From contig CACOVO010000004.1 in the NCBI GenBank assembly GCA_902630715.1, positions 22,694 to 86,693 of the forward strand: 64,000 bases of DNA. The letters run 5' to 3'. Positions 496-30,868 of the stretch are shown piece by piece. The translations under genes were made by a program, and so were the position numbers. Below the pieces are notes generated by a model. The model saw only the letters and a program-made list of their open reading frames with translations. It was not told the DNA's origin and searched no databases. The DNA comes from an uncultured SAR86 cluster bacterium. Lineage in GTDB: Bacteria; Pseudomonadota; Gammaproteobacteria; Magnimaribacterales; Magnimaribacteraceae. Each line of letters opens with the position of its first letter. The stretch's first letter is position 1.

Positions 496-2031
496 TTACT
501 TCCAATATTTATCTTTAAGTAGACGTTTATAGAGTTTACCGGTCGGGTGTCTAGGTAGCTCTTCTTGAAAATCTATTGAACGAGGACTCTTGATAGATGA
601 TATGTTATCTTTACAAAAAGCAATAAGTTCTGCTTCTAAATCGGGTCCCGCATCACTAAAGTCAGCGGGTTGAACTACTGCTTTTACTTCTTCCCCCATC
701 TCTTCATTCGGTACTCCAAATACAGCCACATCAGCAACTTTCGGATGCATAACCAGAAGATCTTCTGTTTCTTTCGGATAAATATTTACACCGCCGGAGA
801 TTATCATGAAAGATTTTCTATCAGTGAGATAAAGAAAACCCTCTTCATCTAAGTAACCTACATCGCCAAGAGAACTATAACCTTCTTTAGTCATTGCATT
901 TTTAGTTTTTTCTTCGTCATTATGGTACTCAAAGGTCGTTGCTGTTTCTCCGCCAAAATAAACACCTCCTACTTCTCCAATAGGAAGTTCCTCACCATCA
1001 TCATCCAAAATATGTAAAGAACCGAACAGAGGTCTCCCTACACTTCCCTTATGTTCAAGCCATTCTTGTGAATTAATCATAGTTATACCGTTGTACTCTG
1101 TACCGGCATAATATTCATGAATTATCGGGCCCCACCAGTCGATCATTTGTTCTTTCACTGCAACTGGGCAAGGTGCAGCAGCATGAATTGCAACCTGGTG
1201 AGAAGAAAGGTCGTACTGAGTTCTTATAGAGGGATCAACTTTTAGAAATCTTACAAACATTGTTGGTACCCATTGAGAATGGGTTACCTTATATTTTTCT
1301 ATAGATTCAAGGGCCTTTTCTTCGTCAAATTTTTCCAGAATTATCGAAGTCCCACCTGCTGCTAAAAAACCTGTATTAAAATTTAAGGGCGCAGCATGAT
1401 ACAAAGGCGCAGGTGATAGATAAATGCTTTCTTCTCCAGCTCCATATAATAGTAGTACTCTTGCAAGTCCAGGATCTTCATCTTCAATCTCGTAAGGCAG
1501 TGGTGTGAGAGGCAATTCCCTTTTGACTCCCTTTGGTTTTCCTGTAGTGCCGGAGGAATATAGCATTGATCCTCCTTGACACTCATCCTTAATAGATTCA
1601 ACGGGCATATTCTCGATTGCACTCTCGTAAGAATCGTATCCAGAAGTTTCCCCATCAAGCATAAACTTATGCACTCCGTCCAAAACTGAATTTAAATCCT
1701 GTGCAGTTGACTCCAAAAATTTTGATGTAATAAGTATTTTTGCCTCACAATCCTTAACAATGTATTCGACTTCGGAAGGTTGTAATCTCCAACTTATAGT
1801 TGTGTATCTTAGGCCACTTCTCCAAGCTGCAAAAACAATAGGAAAAAATAAGTAATGATTTTCTAGCATAATTGCCACTGAATCGCCTGGTTTAAGTCCA
1901 AGAGACCTAAATAAGTGAGCTCCTTGATTAGATAGCTCATTCAACTCTCCATGAGTTATAACCTTTTCACTTCCAGCCATAATTACTGCTGGTTTTTCCG
2001 GAAATTTTTTGCCGTTTACACCTGGATGCAT
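496..2031 (-). CDS. Acyl-CoA synthetase (AMP-forming, ANL superfamily), LvaE-like candidate
   Basis: This enzyme should activate a carboxylic acid to its CoA thioester via an acyl-adenylate. The AMP-binding P-loop SSGTTGKPKG lies near residue 160. YYAGTEY, GDVGYLDEEGFLYLTDRKS and the C-terminal catalytic-lysine region PTGKLYKR are all present. The track starts at 2085, but MHPG at 2031 is preferred: it is preceded by AAGGGAGAAGTT, a good ribosome-binding site, and begins like family members, leaving 511 aa. It is divergent from the ketoacyl synthase operon, sharing a roughly 90-nt promoter region. Because that operon holds LvaA/B/C-like genes, it could supply the CoA ester, as LvaE does in levulinate catabolism. 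The substrate cannot be read from sequence; a medium-chain fatty acid is the main alternative. Confidence 0.88.
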   Translation of the reverse strand: MHPGVNGKKFPEKPAVIMAGSEKVITHGELNELSNQGAHLFRSLGLKPGDSVAIMLENHYLFFPIVFAAWRSGLRYTTISWRLQPSEVEYIVKDCEAKILITSKFLESTAQDLNSVLDGVHKFMLDGETSGYDSYESAIENMPVESIKDECQGGSMLYSSGTTGKPKGVKRELPLTPLPYEIEDEDPGLARVLLLYGAGEESIYLSPAPLYHAAPLNFNTGFLAAGGTSIILEKFDEEKALESIEKYKVTHSQWVPTMFVRFLKVDPSIRTQYDLSSHQVAIHAAAPCPVAVKEQMIDWWGPIIHEYYAGTEYNGITMINSQEWLEHKGSVGRPLFGSLHILDDDGEELPIGEVGGVYFGGETATTFEYHNDEEKTKNAMTKEGYSSLGDVGYLDEEGFLYLTDRKSFMIISGGVNIYPKETEDLLVMHPKVADVAVFGVPNEEMGEEVKAVVQPADFSDAGPDLEAELIAFCKDNISSIKSPRSIDFQEELPRHPTGKLYKRLLKDKYWK

Positions 2032-18361: not shown

Positions 18362-19810
18362 GTGATCAATTTTTTAACAGATAACAAAGGTTTTGGTCTA
18401 GGTGTGGTTTTAGCATTTCTCGTGCTTGCTCTTCCTGCACCTGAAGGATTATCACTTGAAGGTCAACGAACAGCCGCTATTTTCTTGTTAATGGGAGCCT
18501 GGTGGGCCACTGAAGCAGTTCCTGTTGCTGTAACAGCGCTAGTTCCTTTAGCCTTATTTCCTTTATTGGGTATCGTAGATATACAAAATGCAGCTGATCC
18601 TTATGCCAATAAAACGATTTACTTGTTCTTTGGTGGATTTTTAATGGCCACCGCTATTCAAAAATGGGATTTACATAAAAGAATTGCTCTATTTGTACTT
18701 CAAAATGCAGGATCAAATGGAGCATCACTAATTTTCGGGTTCATGCTTACTGCAGCACTTATAAGTATGTGGGTAATGAATACTGCAACTACCATCATGC
18801 TCCTGCCAATTGGTTTAGCAGTTATAACAGTAGTTAAATCAACTGTTAAATATCTATCAGATGAAGAAATTGAGGCCTTTCAATTAGCGCTTCTTCTTGG
18901 GATTGCCTATGGAGCAACAATTGGAGGCATGTCTACCCTTATAGGAACCGGTCCTAATGGCATGTTGGCAGCATTTATGGCAGATAATTACAATTTAGAT
19001 ATTAGTTTTGTGGACTGGATGAAAGTTGGAGTGCCTCTAAGCGCCGTTATGTTGCCGTGTAGCTGGCTAATTCTCACTAAAGTTATATTTAAAGTGAATT
19101 TTGAAACTTCCTCGGAAACAAAAGTATTACTCTCATCGATGAAGGAGGAACTCGGTGTATTGAAAGGTCCAGAACTTAAAGTTTTAATTATCTTTTTTAT
19201 AACTGCACTAGCCTGGATGTTCAGGACTGTTCTAGATAACTTTTCATTTCTTAACGGATTGTCAGACGCGGGTATAGCTATGGTCTCCGCACTTTTTCTT
19301 TTTCTTGTTCCAAACGGAAACACAGATAAGAAAGGTCCTTTATTGGAATGGAAGGATGCTCAAGAAAATGTTCCTTGGGGCTTGTTGGTCCTTTTCGGAG
19401 GTGGTTTAAGTCTTGCCAATGCAGTTCAAGCAACGGGATTAGCAATTTGGATGGGAAGCTTAATCCCACAAGGTGTAAGTTTGGCTTTAATAGTGATTTT
19501 AGTTGTCGCTTTAATAATTTTCTTGACTGAATTGACTTCTAATATGGCTACAACAGCAACATTTTTACCTGTCGTGGCTGCGATTGCACTGCAGTCAAAC
19601 TTTGATCCTCTGCTTGTTACAGCTGCTGTTGCGCTAGCTGCTAGTTGTGCTTTTATGTTGCCAGTTGCAACACCCCCTAACGCCATTGTTTTTGGATCAG
19701 GACTTATTAGAGTTCCTCAAATGGCTAAAGCGGGATTCCTTATAAACATTTTGGGAATAACGGTGGTTTCTTTAGTGGCTGTTTTTTCTGTTCCCTACTT
19801 CTTGCTTTAG
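18362..19810 (+). CDS. SLC13/DASS family anion:sodium symporter
   Basis: 482 aa polytopic inner-membrane protein. It carries the DASS features SNMATTATFLPVVAAIA and the family signature CAFMLPVATPPNAIVFGSG near the C-terminus, plus the N-terminal half repeat TTIMLLPIGLA. Members import di- or tricarboxylates or sulfate with sodium. The start is GTG at 18362; no in-frame ATG gives a better N-terminus. It lies beyond the receptor terminator, so it probably has its own promoter. Its TAG overlaps the TAA of the convergent ggt gene within one TTAG. Confidence 0.93.
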   Translation: MINFLTDNKGFGLGVVLAFLVLALPAPEGLSLEGQRTAAIFLLMGAWWATEAVPVAVTALVPLALFPLLGIVDIQNAADPYANKTIYLFFGGFLMATAIQKWDLHKRIALFVLQNAGSNGASLIFGFMLTAALISMWVMNTATTIMLLPIGLAVITVVKSTVKYLSDEEIEAFQLALLLGIAYGATIGGMSTLIGTGPNGMLAAFMADNYNLDISFVDWMKVGVPLSAVMLPCSWLILTKVIFKVNFETSSETKVLLSSMKEELGVLKGPELKVLIIFFITALAWMFRTVLDNFSFLNGLSDAGIAMVSALFLFLVPNGNTDKKGPLLEWKDAQENVPWGLLVLFGGGLSLANAVQATGLAIWMGSLIPQGVSLALIVILVVALIIFLTELTSNMATTATFLPVVAAIALQSNFDPLLVTAAVALAASCAFMLPVATPPNAIVFGSGLIRVPQMAKAGFLINILGITVVSLVAVFSVPYFLL

Positions 19811-21510
19811 TTGCCCTTTGCAAGAGCCCCAGGTCTGCGAGTGTCAGCAACTCCAAAGATTTTGTCATTATCTAGAAATATAGCTTGAACACTGCCCATA
19901 GTAGTTGACGCCTCAGGTTCGTGCCCTCGTTGCTTCAACAACTCAATAGTATCAGGACTAAAACCGTTCTCTAACTGGAGTTTTCCTTCTAGTCGTTGAT
20001 TAATTCTGGGAGCTATTACCGCTTCAGTGAAACTCATTTCATGATCGATGACATTACTAATAACCTGAGTGATTATATTTGGAATTCTTCCTCCACCAGG
20101 TGAACCAAGAATCATCATAAGTTCTCCATTTGGTTTAAAAACCAAAGTAGGAGTTTGGGTGCTAATCATTCTCTTACCTGGTTCGAGTCTATTTGCTTCA
20201 CTATCTCCATACTCTGCATGTTCTTTGCCATAAAAGTGCGAAAAATTTCGCATTTGATTGTTCATTAGAAATCCACCCTTTTTGATTGTTACCCCTGATC
20301 CAAATGAGGAGCCTAGCGTATAAGTGTTAGATACAGCATTGCCCTCTGCATCTATAATTGAAAAATGAGTTGTGTCTGGACTCTCATCGTATTTCTTCAA
20401 ATTTCCCTCGAATATTTGACCGTCTGGTGTGCGATTTTCAGAGATTTCTTTTGATAATTTTAAAGAGTATTTTTTGCTGAGAAGAGCTTTTACAGGTACT
20501 TCATAAAAATCAGGATCGCCATGATACTCAGCTCTATCTGCATATGCTCTTTGCATGGCCTCAGACAGAAGATGAATAGTTTTTGCTGAATTATGACCAA
20601 AACTTTTTAAGTTGAAATTTTCTAATATATTCAAAGTCTGAAGAAGAACTAAGCCTCCACTTGCAGATGGAGGCATTGAAACTATGCGGTAACCTCGATA
20701 AAAAGTTTCAATTACATCTCTGTCTTTAGCTCTATAAGAAGCCATATCTTCCAGAGTGATTAATCCTCCATTAGACAAAGACTCATCTGAAATCCATTTA
20801 GCTATTTCACCTTGATAAAATTCATCCTTCCCTTGCTCACTAATCTTTTGCAAAGTTTTAGCTAAATTTGGTTGTTTGAAATTGGACTTAACTTTTATTG
20901 GCTCCTCATCTGATGCATAAAACTTTCGCTTTGAAGCTTCGTTAACGACCATAGATTCTCTGCCCCAATCTAAAACAAAATTAAGATCATATGTAACCTC
21001 AAATCCTTCCCTAGCTAATCTAATTGCAGGTTGCAATAGTTCAGAAATTGGAAGAGTTCCGTGGTCGGTATGTGCTTTTAATAGTCCTGCGACTGATCCT
21101 GGAACTGCATTTACTAAGTGTCCAAATCTTACTACTTTATCTCCATTCAAAAACAAATCACTTGTTGAGGACTTAGGTGCAGCAGAACGGTAATCTATTG
21201 AAAAAACTTTATCTTCCTTTTCGTTGTAAATAAGTATAAATCCGCCCCCGCCAATATTACCTGCCCTAGGAAGAGTCACGGCCAAAGCAAAACCTACAGC
21301 AACTGCCGCATCAACTGCATTACCTCCCTTTTTTAAAATACTGTAGCCAGCCTCGGTTGCATGTTCATTTTGAGTTACAACCATAAATTCCGAAGATATC
21401 TCGGGATGAATCCTGTCTTGATAATCGAGAGTAGTTTGAGTTCTAGCCTGAACAGGCACTTCAAAAAAAATCAACGCAAGACAAATTAACAGAGAATAAC
21501 TTTTCAACAT
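19807..21510 (-). CDS. ggt: Gamma-glutamyltransferase (copy 1)
   Basis: 567 aa, exported (N-terminal signal MLKSYSLLICLALIFFEVPVQA). It cleaves gamma-glutamyl bonds of glutathione and related peptides in the periplasm. The precursor self-cleaves before the catalytic Thr, seen in DTTHFSIID; the small-subunit segments SNTYTLGSSFGSG, LGSPGGGRIPNI and TMGSVQAI are intact. The N-terminal GGNAVDAAVAVGFALAVTLP is a family hallmark. It lies directly downstream (9 nt) of a second ggt gene and a beta-lactamase-fold hydrolase. Confidence 0.96.
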   Translation of the reverse strand: MLKSYSLLICLALIFFEVPVQARTQTTLDYQDRIHPEISSEFMVVTQNEHATEAGYSILKKGGNAVDAAVAVGFALAVTLPRAGNIGGGGFILIYNEKEDKVFSIDYRSAAPKSSTSDLFLNGDKVVRFGHLVNAVPGSVAGLLKAHTDHGTLPISELLQPAIRLAREGFEVTYDLNFVLDWGRESMVVNEASKRKFYASDEEPIKVKSNFKQPNLAKTLQKISEQGKDEFYQGEIAKWISDESLSNGGLITLEDMASYRAKDRDVIETFYRGYRIVSMPPSASGGLVLLQTLNILENFNLKSFGHNSAKTIHLLSEAMQRAYADRAEYHGDPDFYEVPVKALLSKKYSLKLSKEISENRTPDGQIFEGNLKKYDESPDTTHFSIIDAEGNAVSNTYTLGSSFGSGVTIKKGGFLMNNQMRNFSHFYGKEHAEYGDSEANRLEPGKRMISTQTPTLVFKPNGELMMILGSPGGGRIPNIITQVISNVIDHEMSFTEAVIAPRINQRLEGKLQLENGFSPDTIELLKQRGHEPEASTTMGSVQAIFLDNDKIFGVADTRRPGALAKGN

Positions 21511-21519
21511 TGATTGAAA

Positions 21520-23235
21520 TTAAGGAGTAGCCACTCCAGCACTTGGTCGCCTAGGATCGGCAGAACCATAAAAATAGTCGCCTTCTTTCATGATCGCTTG
21601 GATACTCCCCATGGTCGAGGAAGGATAAAGTTTATAACCTTTTTGAACTAAATTTTTCTCAGTATCAGGGCCGAAACCACTTTCAATCATAAGAACTTCA
21701 GGCAACCATTGATGATGAATTCTGGGACTATGAACTGCTTGAGCAATATTCATATCATGATCCATGACATTAATGGCGACTTGTAATACTGTTGTAATAA
21801 TCCGACTGCCCCCTGGACTTCCGAAAACAACAAAAGGTTCGTTATTTTTGAAAATTATCGTCGGGGTCATTGATGATAATGGCCTTTTATTGCCCTCGAT
21901 TGCATTAGCTTCAGAACCTAATAAGCCGTAGCCATTAGGAGTGCCTGGTTTAGAAGAAAAATCATCCATTTCGTTATTTATCAGCATACCAGTGCCAGGA
22001 ATCATTTTTCCTGATCCGTAAGAAAAATTGAGAGTATAAGTATTTGCAACTGCATTACCGTAAGAATCCATCACAGAAAAGTGGGTAGTGTCAGGACTTT
22101 CGTAAGGATAAGGATCTCCAGGAGAGACTTCGCTTGAAGGAGTAATTTTATCACTTGAAATATTCATATTTAAAGACTTAGCATATTGCTTGCTGGTAAG
22201 ACTTGAAGGGACTTCATAGAAATCACTATCGCCTAAGTATTTACTTCTGTCCGCGTAAGCTCGTTTCATTACTTCGGCAAGGATATGTATGCTTTCAGAG
22301 CTTCCAAAGCCCATTTCTTTTATAGGAAATTCCTCGAGCATGTTTAACATTTGGATTAAATGTGTTCCGCCCGAACTGCTGGGCGGCATTGATACTATTT
22401 CAAACTCTTTATAACTGCCAACTAGAGGCTCTCTCTCAACTATATTGTAGTTTGCTAAATCTTCGAGTGTAATCAAACCCCCGTTACGTTCCATTTCTTC
22501 AGCAATCAGTTTGGCAATTTTTCCTTTATAAAATGCGTCTGGACCAAATTCGCTTAATTGTCTTAGAGTGCTAGCCAGATCTTTCTGAACCAACAATTCT
22601 CCGGCTTTATAAAGACTACCATCTTCCTTAAAAAAAACTTTAGAAGCAGCTGGATCAGCAGATAGTCTTTCTCTATATCTTTTTGAGGCGAGAGTATTTG
22701 CCAAATCATGTGGAATAATGAAGCCTTCCTCAGCAAGTTTTATTGCTGGTTTTAAAGCATCTTGCCAACTTATAGTGCCATAATTAGTCAGAGCATAATG
22801 AAAACCTGCTACAGATCCTGGCACGCCAGCTGATAATAAAGAGAATTGAGCTTTCTTTCGATCGTAGTTACCTTCCTCGTCTAAAAATAAATCTCTGTGT
22901 GCTGCAGATGGGGCTTTTTCTCTATAATCGATTGTCAGGGATTTGTCTTTATCTTTGAGATAAACAACCATGAAACCACCGCCGCCAATATTGCCTGCTC
23001 TGGGTAAAACGACAGCCAAAGCCAATCCAGTTGCGACAGCTGCATCAACTGCATTGCCGCCCGATCTCAAAATCTCTGCTCCTACCTCGCTAGCTATCCC
23101 TCTTTGTGACACCACCATTCCTTCACTAGCGATTACAGGATGATTGATCGATTTATATTCGATAATAGGTAGGTCATTTAGGAATAAATTGCCTAAGAAA
23201 AAAATGGATATAAATAATATAGAGATTTTTTTCAT
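21520..23235 (-). CDS. ggt: Gamma-glutamyltransferase (copy 2)
   Basis: 571 aa, exported, a clear but diverged paralogue of the following gene. The autoprocessing/catalytic Thr is in DTTHFSVMD. GGNAVDAAVATGLALAVVLP, MPPSSSGGTHLIQ, FGSPGGSRIITT and TMGSIQAIM are present. The two copies differ throughout, so this is an old tandem duplication rather than an assembly artefact. The pair may have different donor or acceptor preferences. It starts 6 nt downstream of the hydrolase stop, indicating one operon of three exported hydrolases. Confidence 0.96.
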   Translation of the reverse strand: MKKISILFISIFFLGNLFLNDLPIIEYKSINHPVIASEGMVVSQRGIASEVGAEILRSGGNAVDAAVATGLALAVVLPRAGNIGGGGFMVVYLKDKDKSLTIDYREKAPSAAHRDLFLDEEGNYDRKKAQFSLLSAGVPGSVAGFHYALTNYGTISWQDALKPAIKLAEEGFIIPHDLANTLASKRYRERLSADPAASKVFFKEDGSLYKAGELLVQKDLASTLRQLSEFGPDAFYKGKIAKLIAEEMERNGGLITLEDLANYNIVEREPLVGSYKEFEIVSMPPSSSGGTHLIQMLNMLEEFPIKEMGFGSSESIHILAEVMKRAYADRSKYLGDSDFYEVPSSLTSKQYAKSLNMNISSDKITPSSEVSPGDPYPYESPDTTHFSVMDSYGNAVANTYTLNFSYGSGKMIPGTGMLINNEMDDFSSKPGTPNGYGLLGSEANAIEGNKRPLSSMTPTIIFKNNEPFVVFGSPGGSRIITTVLQVAINVMDHDMNIAQAVHSPRIHHQWLPEVLMIESGFGPDTEKNLVQKGYKLYPSSTMGSIQAIMKEGDYFYGSADPRRPSAGVATP

Positions 23236-24681: not shown

Positions 24682-25479
24682 ATGAATTTAAATTTGAGTG
24701 ATAAAAATGCAATGGTCTGTGCATCAAGCCAAGGATTGGGGAAGGCAGCTGCATTAGAGCTTGCTAAAGAAGGAGCAAATCTTGCCATTTGTTCTAGAGA
24801 CCAAAAGAAAATAAATAAAGTTAGAGATGAAATTCTTAAACAACTTGAAAATGAGGTTGAAATTCTTGCTCTTGAAATAGATTTGAACAACTCAAAAGAA
24901 ATAGAGGAATTTCACCTAAGGACCACAGAACATTTTGATGCTGTTGATATATTAGTAAACAATAATGGCGGCCCTCCTCCTAGTTCATTTGAAAAATTAA
25001 CTGATGCTGATTGGGAAAAAGCCTTCAATTCAACAATGATGTCCTGTATTCGACTTTCAAAGCTTGTAATACCTAAAATGAAACAAAAAAATTGGGGCAG
25101 AATCATCAACATATCTTCAGTGTCCGTAAAGACCCCGGTAACAGGACTTTTTTTATCGAATAGCCTAAGAATGGGAGTTCTTGGTTGGGCAAAGGCATTG
25201 TCAGATGAGATTGCACCATTTGGAATTACTGTAAATACAGTTTGTCCGGGTTATACGAAAACCGAAAGAGTGGAGGCAATATTAGATGCACAGTCTAAAT
25301 CGTCAGGTTTGACGAAAAAGGATATTGAAAAATCTATAGCGGAGAATATTCCAATGAAAAGAGTTGGAGAAGCTGAAGATTTAGCTGGATTGATAACTTT
25401 TCTTGCTTCAGAAAAGGCAAACTATATGACAGGACTAGCTGTACAGGTGGATGGTGGTTCGGCCAGAACTTTTTATTAA
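24682..25479 (+). CDS. SDR family protein with non-canonical active site (BKR-like)
   Basis: 265 aa SDR fold. The cofactor motif is altered (CASSQGLGKAAALE), and the usual YxxxK is absent: after the Ser region NISSVSVKTPV comes LFLSNSLRMGVLGWAKAL, with NSLR where YxxxK is expected. NNNGGPPPSSFE replaces NNAG. A recognised FabG-like SDR subgroup shares these substitutions, so the gene is not broken. It may use a different proton relay or not be a classical reductase. Its TAA overlaps the stop of the convergent gene within TTAA. Confidence 0.85.
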   Translation: MNLNLSDKNAMVCASSQGLGKAAALELAKEGANLAICSRDQKKINKVRDEILKQLENEVEILALEIDLNNSKEIEEFHLRTTEHFDAVDILVNNNGGPPPSSFEKLTDADWEKAFNSTMMSCIRLSKLVIPKMKQKNWGRIINISSVSVKTPVTGLFLSNSLRMGVLGWAKALSDEIAPFGITVNTVCPGYTKTERVEAILDAQSKSSGLTKKDIEKSIAENIPMKRVGEAEDLAGLITFLASEKANYMTGLAVQVDGGSARTFY

Positions 25480-25802
25480 TCCTTAAAGTACTTATTAAGC
25501 TTTCTTACTTGCTTAGGGGGCTTTCGCAACAGAACATAAATTATAGAGGTAATGACTCCAGAAATGATAAGTGGTGTCGCAAAATAGCCGATATAAAAAT
25601 AAGCTGAAGCATCAGCTGGTAAGTCTCCTCCATAGCTTTGCATAAAGAATAAAAGCAAAGAAAATATAATAAAAAACGAAATTATCTTTTTTTGATAAGC
25701 CTGGTGCCTAGAGGCCTCTGCAATCAATTCCTTTAAAAGAAATTGCTGGTCTACTTTATCTGAGCTTATATTAAGTTTTCCATTGGTATATGACCACTTC
25801 AT
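25476..25802 (-). CDS. Small membrane protein of unknown function
   Basis: 108 aa from the ATG at 25802, which is preceded by GGGAGAATTCTT; the track uses a TTG at 25856 that adds 18 residues. The N-terminal ~45 residues are hydrophilic. Two membrane spans follow (KIISFFIIFSLLLFFMQSY and YIGYFATPLIISGVITSIIYVLL), then a basic tail. No family recognised. Confidence 0.65.
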   Translation of the reverse strand: MKWSYTNGKLNISSDKVDQQFLLKELIAEASRHQAYQKKIISFFIIFSLLLFFMQSYGGDLPADASAYFYIGYFATPLIISGVITSIIYVLLRKPPKQVRKLNKYFKD

Positions 25803-25877
25803 AAGAATTCTCCCAACCTCATTATAATCGAAATTAAGTTTGAGATGCTTTTTCAAAAGACGTTTTGAGCAAGCTTA

Positions 25878-26342
25878 TTATTTTTCTAATCTCCGCCACA
25901 CCCAAGGTTTGATGGGATCTGAATCTATCCACAATCCTTTTCTGCTCAACTTGGCTTTTGTTTGATCATCATAGAAAGAGTAATCAGTGACATATTCATC
26001 ATATACCCATGCGTAGCCCGCAGAGACAAGTTCACGATTGATATCTTTTCCTTTCCAATACAATCTAGCTAACTTTCTGCCGTATCTATCAGTACCAGAT
26101 ATATCTATATCTACTTTTCCCTCTCCAAGCAGTTTTTTAAGATAATTAGTTGAATCTATACCAAAAGGTTGATCCCTCTCCGGAGCATCAATCTCGGTAA
26201 GTCGTAACTTATAAACTTCATCCTTAAAAAAAACATGAACAGTATCCCCATCTACAATTCTTTTTATAGCTAAGTTCTCAAGGTAATCTGCGCTGCAAAA
26301 ACTAGCAAAGATAAGTAAAAAAATAATCTTAAAGTTTTTCAA
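25878..26342 (-). CDS. Secreted thermonuclease family protein (staphylococcal nuclease fold)
   Basis: 154 aa with an N-terminal signal (KIIFLLIFASFCSA). The SNase core is intact: IVDGDTVHVFF, RLTEIDAPERDQPFG with the catalytic Arg and Glu, and DRYGRKLARLYWKGKDINRELVSAGYAWVY with the second catalytic Arg. Single-domain enzyme, likely calcium-dependent and periplasmic or extracellular, degrading DNA/RNA for nutrients. Confidence 0.92.
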   Translation of the reverse strand: MKNFKIIFLLIFASFCSADYLENLAIKRIVDGDTVHVFFKDEVYKLRLTEIDAPERDQPFGIDSTNYLKKLLGEGKVDIDISGTDRYGRKLARLYWKGKDINRELVSAGYAWVYDEYVTDYSFYDDQTKAKLSRKGLWIDSDPIKPWVWRRLEK

Positions 26343-26411: not shown

Positions 26412-26434
26412 TTAATCCTTGTCAATGAATTTAT
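26412..26434. repeat. Direct repeat copy 1 at gene 3' end
   Basis: TTAATCCTTGTCAATGAATTTAT, overlapping the stop of the 178-aa gene, matches 27922-27944 at 21 of 23 positions. Confidence 0.65.
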
Positions 26435-26948
26435 GAATAATGTCGATAGCTTCCAACAGATCATCATAGCGTTCGTCCTTTCTACTTAAATTATCTTTTT
26501 CTAAATCAGCTGAAGCTATTTCAACTCCATCATGGGGATCATGAAGACTTATATTGAGCGGTTTACCTTCCCAAAAAGAAATCCTGATACTCAGTAAATA
26601 CCCACCAGAAATCTGGCGATTACACAGGAAAAGTTCTTCTGAGACACCATGCCTCAATCCTTGTTTAAATCTAAAATGACAAACATAGTTTTCAAAGTCA
26701 TAACTAACCCAATTCCTTGGCAGCTCACCCTCTTCGAGGTCACTCCATACATCGTCATATGTATCAAAAAAAATTGAAAGGAATTCATGATTTTCCATTT
26801 TACTTTCCCCAGTTTTTAAATCACTGAGGAAATCTATAAAGGGGACGCTGACTAAACCTGTGAATAATCTATCCTGACTTGATTCATAAACAATGCCATT
26901 ACGATTAACCAAATCCAAAACATAGTCTTTTCTTATTCCAAAATTCAT
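26412..26948 (-). CDS. Unknown protein, possibly MORN/YwqK-like; third gene of an unknown operon
   Basis: 178 aa, no signal peptide or membrane span. Segments such as GIVYESSQDRLFTGLVSV and FRFKQGLRHGVSEELFLCNR resemble degenerate MORN/YwqK-type repeats (xLFTG... GxxHG). The C-terminus EAIDIIHKFIDKD closely matches the end of the 553-aa protein (KNKFIDRD), and the DNA matches there too. It is 9 nt downstream of the 325-aa gene, so probably one operon. Function unknown. Confidence 0.6.
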   Translation of the reverse strand: MNFGIRKDYVLDLVNRNGIVYESSQDRLFTGLVSVPFIDFLSDLKTGESKMENHEFLSIFFDTYDDVWSDLEEGELPRNWVSYDFENYVCHFRFKQGLRHGVSEELFLCNRQISGGYLLSIRISFWEGKPLNISLHDPHDGVEIASADLEKDNLSRKDERYDDLLEAIDIIHKFIDKD

Positions 26949-26957
26949 GGTCGCATA

Positions 26958-27911
26958 CTATCCAAGAGGGCTGACCTCACTTAGATTATCCAAATCTTTT
27001 AGAGTCAAAGATTTAAAATATCCACGACTTCCAATAACAAATCTTTCCCAAGACCAAGTTTCAATGAGACTTACAGAGGATTCTATCTGACCTCTAACGC
27101 CAATATTTTCGATTCCAAAATATTTAATATAATCCTTAATGAACCTCTTAGATTTGTTATCAAACTTAAATTCTTTTGTAAAAAATAACTTATCATCAAA
27201 ACTATAATGACCTGAACATATGCATTTAGGTTCTAAATACTCTCCCATACTTTCATACTTAGTTGAATCCGATTTCATCCAAAAGATTCCAGTAGACATA
27301 GAAAAAAAGTCATAGATCTCATCAAAATCTTTCTTACAGTCTTCCAAGGCATGCTTATAAAGTTGATAGAGTTGAGATTTTAGATAATCATTTACATACT
27401 CAGTATTTTTCCCATCCTTAATGAATACATTGGCTTCTTTTTCTATACGATCTGCATCCCATTTGTGAAAATTATCTAATTCGACTTCGTTGAGTGTTGG
27501 GAATCTTAAAAAAATTTTTATTCCTGAGAAATCATCTTTTAAACTCCAACCAAATAAACCGTCTAGGAAATATACTTCAAGAGTTTCGTTTTTCTCTTGA
27601 ATTAGAACTCTTTCACAATTCTTCACAGAATCAGGCCCGTAGTATTCTGGACCGTTTACAAAAGGGCATTGGGGATGCCAGCTTTCTTCAACACTGCCAA
27701 AGCCTGTCCAGGCAATGAGTAAACCTTCTTCATAGTAATGTAACTCGTTATATTTAAATCGCTCTTTTTGGTTTTTATTTTTTTCATCCAAGCATACGGT
27801 TGAAAAAGCAAAGCCTGAAAAAGGGTAATTTTTATATTTTATATAATGAAGACTATTGTCTCGTTCGATTAGGTTTTCAATATTGGTAAAACTAGGAAAT
27901 GAAAATTTCAT
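26958..27911 (-). CDS. Unknown protein, possibly MORN/YwqK-like; second gene of an unknown operon
   Basis: 317 aa from the ATG at 27911; the track start at 27935 is a TTG inside the preceding gene's end. The N-terminal part has YIKYKNYPFSGFAFSTV and YNELHYYEEGLLIAWTGFG, reminiscent of YwqK/MORN repeats (PFSG, YYxxGLL). The middle is acidic and helical (RIEKEANVFIKDGKNTEYVNDYLKSQLYQLYKHALEDC), and the end is aromatic-rich. No catalytic motif, signal peptide or membrane span is evident. Function unknown. Confidence 0.6.
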   Translation of the reverse strand: MKFSFPSFTNIENLIERDNSLHYIKYKNYPFSGFAFSTVCLDEKNKNQKERFKYNELHYYEEGLLIAWTGFGSVEESWHPQCPFVNGPEYYGPDSVKNCERVLIQEKNETLEVYFLDGLFGWSLKDDFSGIKIFLRFPTLNEVELDNFHKWDADRIEKEANVFIKDGKNTEYVNDYLKSQLYQLYKHALEDCKKDFDEIYDFFSMSTGIFWMKSDSTKYESMGEYLEPKCICSGHYSFDDKLFFTKEFKFDNKSKRFIKDYIKYFGIENIGVRGQIESSVSLIETWSWERFVIGSRGYFKSLTLKDLDNLSEVSPLG

Positions 27912-27921
27912 TGAGCCAGTG

Positions 27922-27944
27922 TTAATCCCTGTCAATAAATTTAT
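27922..27944. repeat. Direct repeat copy 2 at gene 3' end
   Basis: TTAATCCCTGTCAATAAATTTAT, overlapping the stop of the 553-aa gene, matches 26412-26434 at 21 of 23 positions. Confidence 0.65.
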
Positions 27945-29583
27945 TCTTTAAGGCTATCATGTCCCACTTTGGAATTTCGATCATCATTCTGCATTCAGGG
28001 GTGGAAACTCCATTAGGAGCTGAGGTCGTTGTTAATACTTCAGGGAGAAGCTCTAAAAAAGCTTTTTTTGTTTGAATATTAGAAAACAAAAACCAAACAT
28101 AGCGCTTTTTCCCAGGATCTAAGAAATCAGCTAAGTTTAATTCTATCCATCCTATGTTTTCTTTACGTATAGGTTTAAAAGGTCTCATTTTGTATTTAGG
28201 GTGCCATTCTATGATCTCCTCAATCCTTAACGCATCAGGTTCAATTTCTCGCGCTACAATTGCTTCAATCGATTCTCCATATTTAAAATAAAATTCTACG
28301 CAAGCAGAAACAAGCTCTTCCATGGGTTCAAGTTCTTTATCTATTTTTGCTTGATTATTTTCAGTTTTTTTATTTAAGTATTTAGATATTTCAGATGCCC
28401 TGTTAATTAGATCTCTCTTGACGTTATGTTCGTTCCAATCTGGAAAGTCATTGCCTATGTTCCAATCAACCATATACGCACATACGGCTTCTCTTATTTC
28501 TTTGGGCTTTATGCCAAGGGTTAGCAGGGTCTCAATATGTGAACTTTCGATATCGTTTGCACATAAATATGAATCTTCGTCTTCATGTGCAGGTGTTGGA
28601 ATAAACTCACCACCACTTAAATCATTAACTCTAATAATTTTTTGGTCTCTTAACTGCCAATACAAACTACCAACTTGATAGCTAATATCAGAAATGCGTA
28701 AGTTAGAGATGTTTATGTATTTTTCGTTCCTAAAGTCAAAATACCACAAAACCTTCTCGAGAAAATCGACGTCTCCAAAAGGCCATGAGTTGTCACCCTC
28801 ACCTGAAAATATGTGATGCTCCAATTCTCCAACACCCTTATCTAGAGAATTGTATTCAAACTCTTTAACTAAATTAGTCTTATCTAAATTGAAATTGAAA
28901 TATCTTTTTAGATAATGAATCTCTCTTTTATTAAAACCTTCCAACGTAGTTACAAACTTATGGGTAAAATGGTTAAATTCGGTGTACTTTGGAATTGGAT
29001 CTCGATAGAAGAACTCATGTGTATTTTTTGTAGGCTTGAGGTTCTGCAGTTTTAGACCTTGTTTACCGTAATTGAATTGAATTAAATCACTTAAATCCCA
29101 TATCCATTCTTTTTCATCGGACCAATAAATATTTCCATTAATAGAGTTTTTTGTATTTACTTGAGTTGTGCTATCCCCAAATTTTCTAATATCTTCTTTG
29201 CTCATCAGAATTTTTCTAGATTCAATAGAAGAATCTATTGACATAGCTATCTTCTCAATCAGAGTTTCGTATTGTTTTCTGTTATAAGTAACATAGCCAT
29301 TAAATTTAGTTTCACGACCCATAGTTTCTCCAAACAGAGGAATGAAGTTTTCTCGAAGCTCATTAAAATTGGGAAAATCTAATTCGATAATTATTTTTTG
29401 GGATTTCTCAGAAAAACTAATTCTTTTTCTCTGGTAGAGAGGTTGCTTAAAGAAAGGCATGAAGTGATAGATAGAAAAAGGCAAATCGACGATATCAAAC
29501 CAAATTGGATATATATCAGAATTGTATGCAAGCCAATGTTGAGTCAACAATTTTTCTAGAAATAAGATTTTTTTTTGTTTCAT
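27922..29583 (-). CDS. Large protein of unknown function; first gene of an unknown operon
   Basis: 553 aa, no signal peptide, no membrane span and no motif I can assign. It is rich in aromatic and charged residues (WPFGDVDFLEKVLWYFDF, GSLYWQLRDQKIIRVND, AYMVDWNIGNDFPDWNEHN). Residues ~355-400 look helical and could form a small helical domain. No ribosome-binding site is obvious before the ATG at 29583. It lies about 240 nt from the 3' end of tRNA-Asp, a common location for acquired genes. Function unknown. Confidence 0.6.
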   Translation of the reverse strand: MKQKKILFLEKLLTQHWLAYNSDIYPIWFDIVDLPFSIYHFMPFFKQPLYQRKRISFSEKSQKIIIELDFPNFNELRENFIPLFGETMGRETKFNGYVTYNRKQYETLIEKIAMSIDSSIESRKILMSKEDIRKFGDSTTQVNTKNSINGNIYWSDEKEWIWDLSDLIQFNYGKQGLKLQNLKPTKNTHEFFYRDPIPKYTEFNHFTHKFVTTLEGFNKREIHYLKRYFNFNLDKTNLVKEFEYNSLDKGVGELEHHIFSGEGDNSWPFGDVDFLEKVLWYFDFRNEKYINISNLRISDISYQVGSLYWQLRDQKIIRVNDLSGGEFIPTPAHEDEDSYLCANDIESSHIETLLTLGIKPKEIREAVCAYMVDWNIGNDFPDWNEHNVKRDLINRASEISKYLNKKTENNQAKIDKELEPMEELVSACVEFYFKYGESIEAIVAREIEPDALRIEEIIEWHPKYKMRPFKPIRKENIGWIELNLADFLDPGKKRYVWFLFSNIQTKKAFLELLPEVLTTTSAPNGVSTPECRMMIEIPKWDMIALKNKFIDRD

Positions 29584-29822
29584 AGGTTGCTATTGAAATT
29601 GATAGGCCTAAGATTCTTTATCAATTAACTTGAAGACCTCTCTTGGGCTTAATTTACTACCATTAACTCTTAAAATAATACATCGTCTCTAGTTTGCTTA
29701 ATAGATGTATTAAATCACCACTTTGCGACATAAAGTGTCGTTATAAGCAGCATAGTTCACAAATCTATAGACTATGATAAGGATGAGTTAGCTACTGCAC
29801 CCATTGAGTTTTAGGTTTGAAG

Positions 29823-29900
29823 TGGCGGACCGGACGAGACTCGAACTCGCGACCTCCGCCGTGACAGGGCGGCGTTCTAACCAAACTGAACTACCGGTCC
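29823..29900 (-). tRNA. tRNA-Asp (anticodon GUC)
   Basis: On the minus strand the sequence begins GGACCGGTAGTTCAG, carries the anticodon loop CCTGTCACGG (GTC), has the T-loop GGTTCGA-type segment GAGTTCGAGTC, and ends GGTCCGCCA with encoded CCA. Acceptor, anticodon and T stems all pair. It sits between the unknown operon and the peptidase E gene. Confidence 0.96.
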
Positions 29901-29958: not shown

Positions 29959-30657
29959 TTAAACTCTAATGGATAAGTCCTCGAAAGCAGCTTCCTTAAC
30001 ATTCTTGTCGTCAATTGAGACAAGATAGGATTTCTTTTCTTTACCAAAATTTACTGACAAAAAATCTTCTTCGTTCTTTACATGAAGTGCGCAATTTCCT
30101 TCAGATGCATAACAAAAATTGAATACATCTTCTTCAAGGAAACGTTTTACTGCGGGTCTTCTTTCAGGCTCTTCGTCATAATGAGGACAAAAATTTCCCT
30201 TTAAAAATCCTAAACACTCTATAACCTTTAGTTCATCGTCCCATGAATCTACAACGGACTTTTCAAACCAACAATTAGCTCCTGCACTTACGCCACTCAT
30301 TACAACTCCATTTTTATAAGCTTCATGAAGAATTTTATCTAAACCCCAGTCCTTCCAAACAGCCAACATACTCTTGGTGTTCCCCCCTCCTACAAAAATC
30401 ACATCTTGACTAGATATTAATTTTTCTAGATTTGGTGTCCTTTTAAAAAAATCTAGATGCACTGGATTACACTTTAATTTTGAAAATGTGGAATAGTAAT
30501 TAACTTTATATGCTTCATTATCGCCAGTAGCTGTGGGGATAAAACAAATATTTGGACTTTGACTGGATGATAAATCAAGTATGTATTGTTCAATGACTCC
30601 GTCACCTGGATTTCTTCCAAAACCTCCGCCTCCAATGGCAACTACATGTCTATCCAT
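29959..30657 (-). CDS. Peptidase E-like (family S51) dipeptidase
   Basis: 232 aa from the ATG at 30657, chosen because it overlaps the upstream stop (ATGGATAG), suggesting translational coupling; the track start at 30681 adds 8 residues. The nucleophile Ser is in MSGVSAGANCWF. IFVGGGNTKSML, GFLKGNFCPHYDEE and YASEGNCALHV are typical S51 segments. Family members hydrolyse Asp-X dipeptides or cyanophycin-type products in the cytosol. Last gene of a five-gene overlapping operon. Confidence 0.9.
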   Translation of the reverse strand: MDRHVVAIGGGGFGRNPGDGVIEQYILDLSSSQSPNICFIPTATGDNEAYKVNYYSTFSKLKCNPVHLDFFKRTPNLEKLISSQDVIFVGGGNTKSMLAVWKDWGLDKILHEAYKNGVVMSGVSAGANCWFEKSVVDSWDDELKVIECLGFLKGNFCPHYDEEPERRPAVKRFLEEDVFNFCYASEGNCALHVKNEEDFLSVNFGKEKKSYLVSIDDKNVKEAAFEDLSIRV

Positions 30658-30868
30658 GAGAAAACATAAGGGCTGAAACAAACACTACTCCCATTGATAA
30701 AACGCCAATGGTAGATATTAGCAAGTTAATTAATAGAAGTTTAATGGATCGAGATTTGTTTAACTCGATGGGATTATTTCTAAAGTAAATGTTTAGTATG
30801 AATATCCAATTAGCAAGGAAAGTAATTCCTCCCAAGCAAAAAATAAGCGTAATGGTATTTGAGGACAT
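30650..30868 (-). CDS. Small two-span membrane protein
   Basis: 72 aa: one span near residues 5-28 (ITLIFCLGGITFLANWIFILNIYF), a short basic loop, then a second span (LLLINLLISTIGVLSMGVVFVSALMF). It starts on the base after the DUF4345 stop and overlaps the peptidase E start by 8 nt. Family unknown; the tight packing supports it being translated. Confidence 0.7.
   Translation of the reverse strand: MSSNTITLIFCLGGITFLANWIFILNIYFRNNPIELNKSRSIKLLLINLLISTIGVLSMGVVFVSALMFSHG

Follow-up and report, generated by a model that had tools for sequence, protein, structure and literature searches.

Three Tightly Packed Genes Beside tRNA-Asp

The stretch of DNA analyzed here, hereafter called the window, covers 64,000 nucleotides of an uncultured SAR86 cluster bacterium and belongs to a genome bin of 1.26 Mb that is 64% complete (contig C4). 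Three genes, termed A, B and C, lie in it between an intact tRNA-Asp gene and an SNase-like gene (Table 1), tightly packed head to tail with a gap of 9 nt between B and C; an alternative TTG start at position 27935 would lengthen the protein of gene B to 325 aa and let the gene run 14 nt into gene A. The original prediction, made from the DNA letters and their open reading frames, had placed proteins of 553, 317 and 178 aa at 26412-29583 on the 3′ side of a tRNA gene, and these values proved exact, the tRNA gene being that of tRNA-Asp at 29823-29900 on the minus strand. The same tRNA gene is found at the same place in relatives. The 239-nt leader that separates it from gene A shows neither a significant RNA structure (fold z -0.95) nor a promoter above chance.

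Table 1. Features of the variable site beside tRNA-Asp, in window coordinates
Feature	Coordinates	Strand	Description
Gene A	29583..27922	-	553-aa ORF, ATG start
Gene B	27911..26958	-	317-aa ORF; suggestive YwqK-like leader near the N-terminus
Gene C	26948..26412	-	178-aa ORF, ATG start; degenerate YwqK-like, without signal peptide
tRNA-Asp (GTC)	29823..29900	-	Intact; left edge of the variable site; ARAGORN, Rfam RF00005 68.7 bits
Leader from tRNA-Asp to gene A, 239 nt	29584..29822	-	Without counterpart in relatives
SNase-like nuclease	25878..26342	-	PF00565 77.6 bits; synteny; right flank of the insertion
126-aa protein with hydrophobic segments	25476..25856	-	Conserved; bounds the hotspot on the right where SNase is missing
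Peptidase S51 (PepE-like)	29959..30681	-	PF03575 163.9 bits; synteny; left anchor of the hotspot

Genes A, B and C are real coding genes. Their codon log-odds are positive in the annotated frame only (A +0.22, B +0.21 and C +0.20 per codon), where the 35 other genes of the window that served as yardstick give 0.15-0.42 per codon, and no stop-free frame longer than 166 aa arises when the region is shuffled 500 times. The GC content of the three genes is 32-35%, slightly below the 36-38% typical of the window. A contig chimera could be ruled out from the synteny of both flanks and a codon usage close to the host's. The encoded proteins are soluble and acidic, with pI values of 4.7-5.7 (A: 66 kDa, pI 5.7), and none has a hydrophobic segment able to form a transmembrane helix; all three look cytoplasmic and none is apparently exported. 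No homology signal was detected between B and C or between either of them and A, nor any signal of internal duplication within A. AlphaFold2 run without alignment returned unusable models for both A (pLDDT 34) and B (pLDDT 33).

Elsewhere in the window, two adjacent gamma-glutamyltranspeptidase genes (19807-23235, minus strand; PF01019, 530 and 594 bits) form a divergent tandem pair that is also found in several relatives (L025, L026, L028, L031).

Orphan Status of the Three Proteins

In hmmscan searches of Pfam, PADLOC, NCBIfam and PHROGs, none of the three proteins has a match with a meaningful E-value, which agrees with the initial statement that they carry no recognized catalytic domain. 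Protein searches found A, B and C in none of the 202 other genomes of the order, 18 of which belong to the same genus, and gene A is likewise absent from the 368 other genomes of a class sample and the 388 other genomes of a phylum sample (203, 369 and 389 genomes, respectively, when its own is included; the class and phylum samples were evenly drawn). Many of these genomes are incomplete, however incompleteness does not explain an absence across all of them. Seed scans gave no relative of A or B in the genome contigs of 84,980 species and none of A, B or C in IMG/VR, with the reservation that such scans require an exact short peptide match and that the genome searches reach only reasonably close relatives, so that distant homologues may exist. 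With tblastn, nothing credible was obtained in phage or plasmid records. The plasmid matches of B and C (E 0.04-0.07) fall under transposase and RadA and were taken as chance, and the sequence matches to PDB entries are chance only for all three proteins. No second copy of A-B-C was found in the collections searched, and clear homologues of known function, which would have told against an undescribed system, were not found.

A Gene-Turnover Hotspot Between tRNA-Asp and the 126-aa Gene

The same locus was fetched from relatives, one genome per species, using the neighboring SDR gene as an anchor; in G016 (L024) this SDR gene is itself broken by a TGA stop and lies in two different frames. Nine same-genus genomes (G004, G005, G008, G009, G011, G012, G016, G017 and G018) share the order pepE, tRNA-Asp, SNase, 126-aa protein and SDR, and the distance from tRNA-Asp to SNase is roughly 20-70 nt in these nine, as against 3480 nt in the window, where the flanks on both sides of A-B-C are otherwise syntenic with the relatives. 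This shows that A-B-C is present in one genome as a lineage-specific insertion that measures about 3.4 kb and has tRNA-Asp on one side and the SNase gene on the other, and a fixed presence among relatives, the other finding that would have spoken against the original prediction, is contradicted by the nine genomes in which SNase directly follows tRNA-Asp.

Further genomes vary at this site. In G001, G019 and G022 both SNase and cargo are missing, a PhyH-type dioxygenase gene in opposite orientation (PF05721, 45.5 bits) replaces SNase in G003 (L025:2973-3887, minus strand), and G015, where the contig ends within the tRNA, carries an orphan of 136 aa whose N-terminus resembles a signal peptide (L026:177-587, minus strand) and which has no match in Pfam or NCBIfam. 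Because relatives carry differing cargo or none at exactly that point, the interval from tRNA-Asp to the 126-aa gene is shown to be a gene-turnover hotspot. It resembles the tRNA-flanking hotspots, or genomic islets, of small-genome bacteria in having a varying cargo on the 3′ side of an intact tRNA, between conserved core genes, however it differs from them in lacking an integrase and an att repeat, and its cargo amounts to only one to four genes.

The 3′ side of a tRNA is a classical integration site, and A-B-C could be the remnant of a phage or satellite that integrated at tRNA-Asp and from which the integrase and further genes have since disappeared. The position on that side of the tRNA and the differences among several relatives would agree with such an origin. 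However, no integrase was found in the insertion (Pfam, PADLOC, NCBIfam, PHROGs), no att-like direct repeat of the tRNA-Asp 3′ end is present on the far side, and the lack of relatives in seed scans of IMG/VR and in phage records also weighs against a phage or satellite source, which we regard as quite improbable. Because there is neither a tRNA-end repeat nor an integrase, the means of acquisition leaves no visible trace, and the three genes were probably gained by homologous recombination through the conserved flanks.

Orphan cargo is common in variable tRNA-flanking sites, and A-B-C may be nothing other than ordinary cargo of this hotspot, that is, three accessory genes that evolve fast and share no toxin or defense role, their products having to do, for instance, with the cell surface, stress or substrates; the genes would have been gained by recombination and be neutrally kept or lost. 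What other relatives carry at the site are single genes unrelated to these, among them the metabolic PhyH-like gene, which argues that this is not a dedicated defense site, and A, B and C hold no recognizable effector domain. On the other hand, the head-to-tail packing, the near-native coding signal and the YwqK-like sequence in C, possibly also in B, suggest a joint unit. Taken together we consider ordinary cargo a plausible account, if one that falls somewhat short of being probable. As for the original prediction, its picture of an accessory insertion beside a tRNA holds, as the genes are absent from the sampled relatives; its further suggestion of an undescribed system is tempered by the fact that ordinary cargo explains the locus too.

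Resemblance of the Smaller Proteins to YwqK

The two smaller proteins had been described as carrying degenerate YwqK/MORN-like segments. The Pfam model of this repeat, PF07661 (MORN_2), matches neither A, B nor C at E<=1. YwqK-type proteins were then gathered from further genomes, with PF07661 and one YwqK protein of the same order as starting points, and a profile was built from the N-terminal part of ten of them, comprising the leader “lv.rnGlyY.....PFTG” and the first repeat. The sequences were gathered without reference to B or C; some caution is nonetheless due, as the leader region was picked when a similarity between C and one YwqK protein was already apparent. Among the window ORFs of at least 100 aa, gene C ranks first with this profile (17.2 bits, E 1.7e-5, 0/2000 shuffles) and gene B second, with a weak score of 6.4-6.5 bits (E 0.04, 1/2000 shuffles), and gene A stays at noise level. 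A version with seven sequences gives C 16.2 bits and leaves B at noise.

The aligned segments of C are residues 12-34 and 94-105, and a YwqK-type N-terminal leader followed by a Y/F-x-G-x-x-x-G repeat is present. In terms of the YwqK family (COG2849-type, MORN_2/PF07661), C and perhaps, more weakly, B share the leader “LV.RNG..Y....FTG” and one repeat-like segment, “F.QGLRHG”. At the level of sequence statistics C is shown to be a degenerate YwqK-family protein, and B is possibly another; the resemblance first proposed for both is thus upheld for C and is suggestive only for B.

The host genome has a YwqK paralogue of its own (L044), a lipoprotein-like protein of 341 aa without evident toxin partner. 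Its gene (L051:4491-5516, minus strand, genome G000) lies downstream of two large genes, encoding 819 and 823 aa, which look by reading like a restriction-type pair. In G004 (L036:212-1120 and 1444-1965, plus strand), the gene of a NucS_C/MrcB_N-type PD-(D/E)XK nuclease is situated just upstream of that of a YwqK-like lipoprotein on the same strand.

A Possible Effector With YwqK-Like Partners

The closest known arrangement for comparison, and the one from which YwqK takes its name, is YwqJ/YwqK of Bacillus subtilis, a polymorphic toxin/antitoxin pair of 602 and 154 aa that is encoded in a larger operon and has a nucleic-acid target (PMC6562991). LXG toxins serve in competition within biofilms of B. 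subtilis (PMC8321402). We chose an effector and immunity reading of A-B-C because the layout resembles that of YwqJ/YwqK, with a large protein first and smaller YwqK-like ones after it: C is near YwqK in size (178 vs. 154 aa), and both C and B come after a large gene (553 vs. 602 aa). The differences are that C is degenerate and does not score with PF07661, that A is without LXG or any known toxin domain, that there are two downstream partners here, and that host and genomic setting are not the same. In this proposal, the three genes would be co-transcribed in the order A-B-C, A would act as a toxin-like effector, and C, perhaps together with B, would restrain A within the cell in the way that YwqK restrains YwqJ in Bacillus.

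The large gene in first position, the lack of signal peptides and the patchy distribution fit polymorphic toxin/immunity or defense cargo. Several findings tell against the proposal: A matches no LXG or other polymorphic-toxin domain in Pfam, NCBIfam or PADLOC, YwqK-type proteins elsewhere often resemble exported lipoproteins without evident toxin partner, no transport system is linked to A-B-C, and the YwqK signal of B is weak. Because the models failed, a catalytic role of A is also without structural support. We therefore put forward only tentatively, as a doubtful candidate if still the likeliest of the specific mechanisms, that A is a lineage-specific effector for which C, and perhaps B as well, would serve as YwqK-like antitoxin or immunity proteins. 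A more far-reaching reading, in which the genome-specific islet as a whole would be an undescribed three-gene toxin/immunity or defense module of one large effector and two divergent YwqK-like regulators, seems to us rather unlikely.

The activity could also be directed against phages, in which case A would be a sensor or effector, B and C its repeat-type partners, and the hotspot a small defense island. Genome-specific presence at a tRNA-adjacent hotspot, as seen here, is typical of defense cargo, and the absence of relatives from phage records points in the same direction. However, no PADLOC model matches at E<=1, the insertion contains no known defense gene, and the other genes found at the site in relatives are not recognized defense genes, so that we hold an anti-phage module to be a rather unlikely explanation, though one not far behind the effector reading. 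Plain orphan cargo, with the fair measure of plausibility that it has, is as good an answer as an effector with its immunity proteins, but makes fewer predictions.

Implications

There is good support for A-B-C being an accessory islet: orphan genes, one of which can be tied to a known family, inserted at a tRNA hotspot. A small-genome lineage thus swaps cargo at a tRNA-Asp/SNase hotspot, and this cargo includes proteins unlike any described family. Should A indeed be an effector that is checked by the YwqK-like proteins, immunity of the YwqK type would extend to a new effector class.
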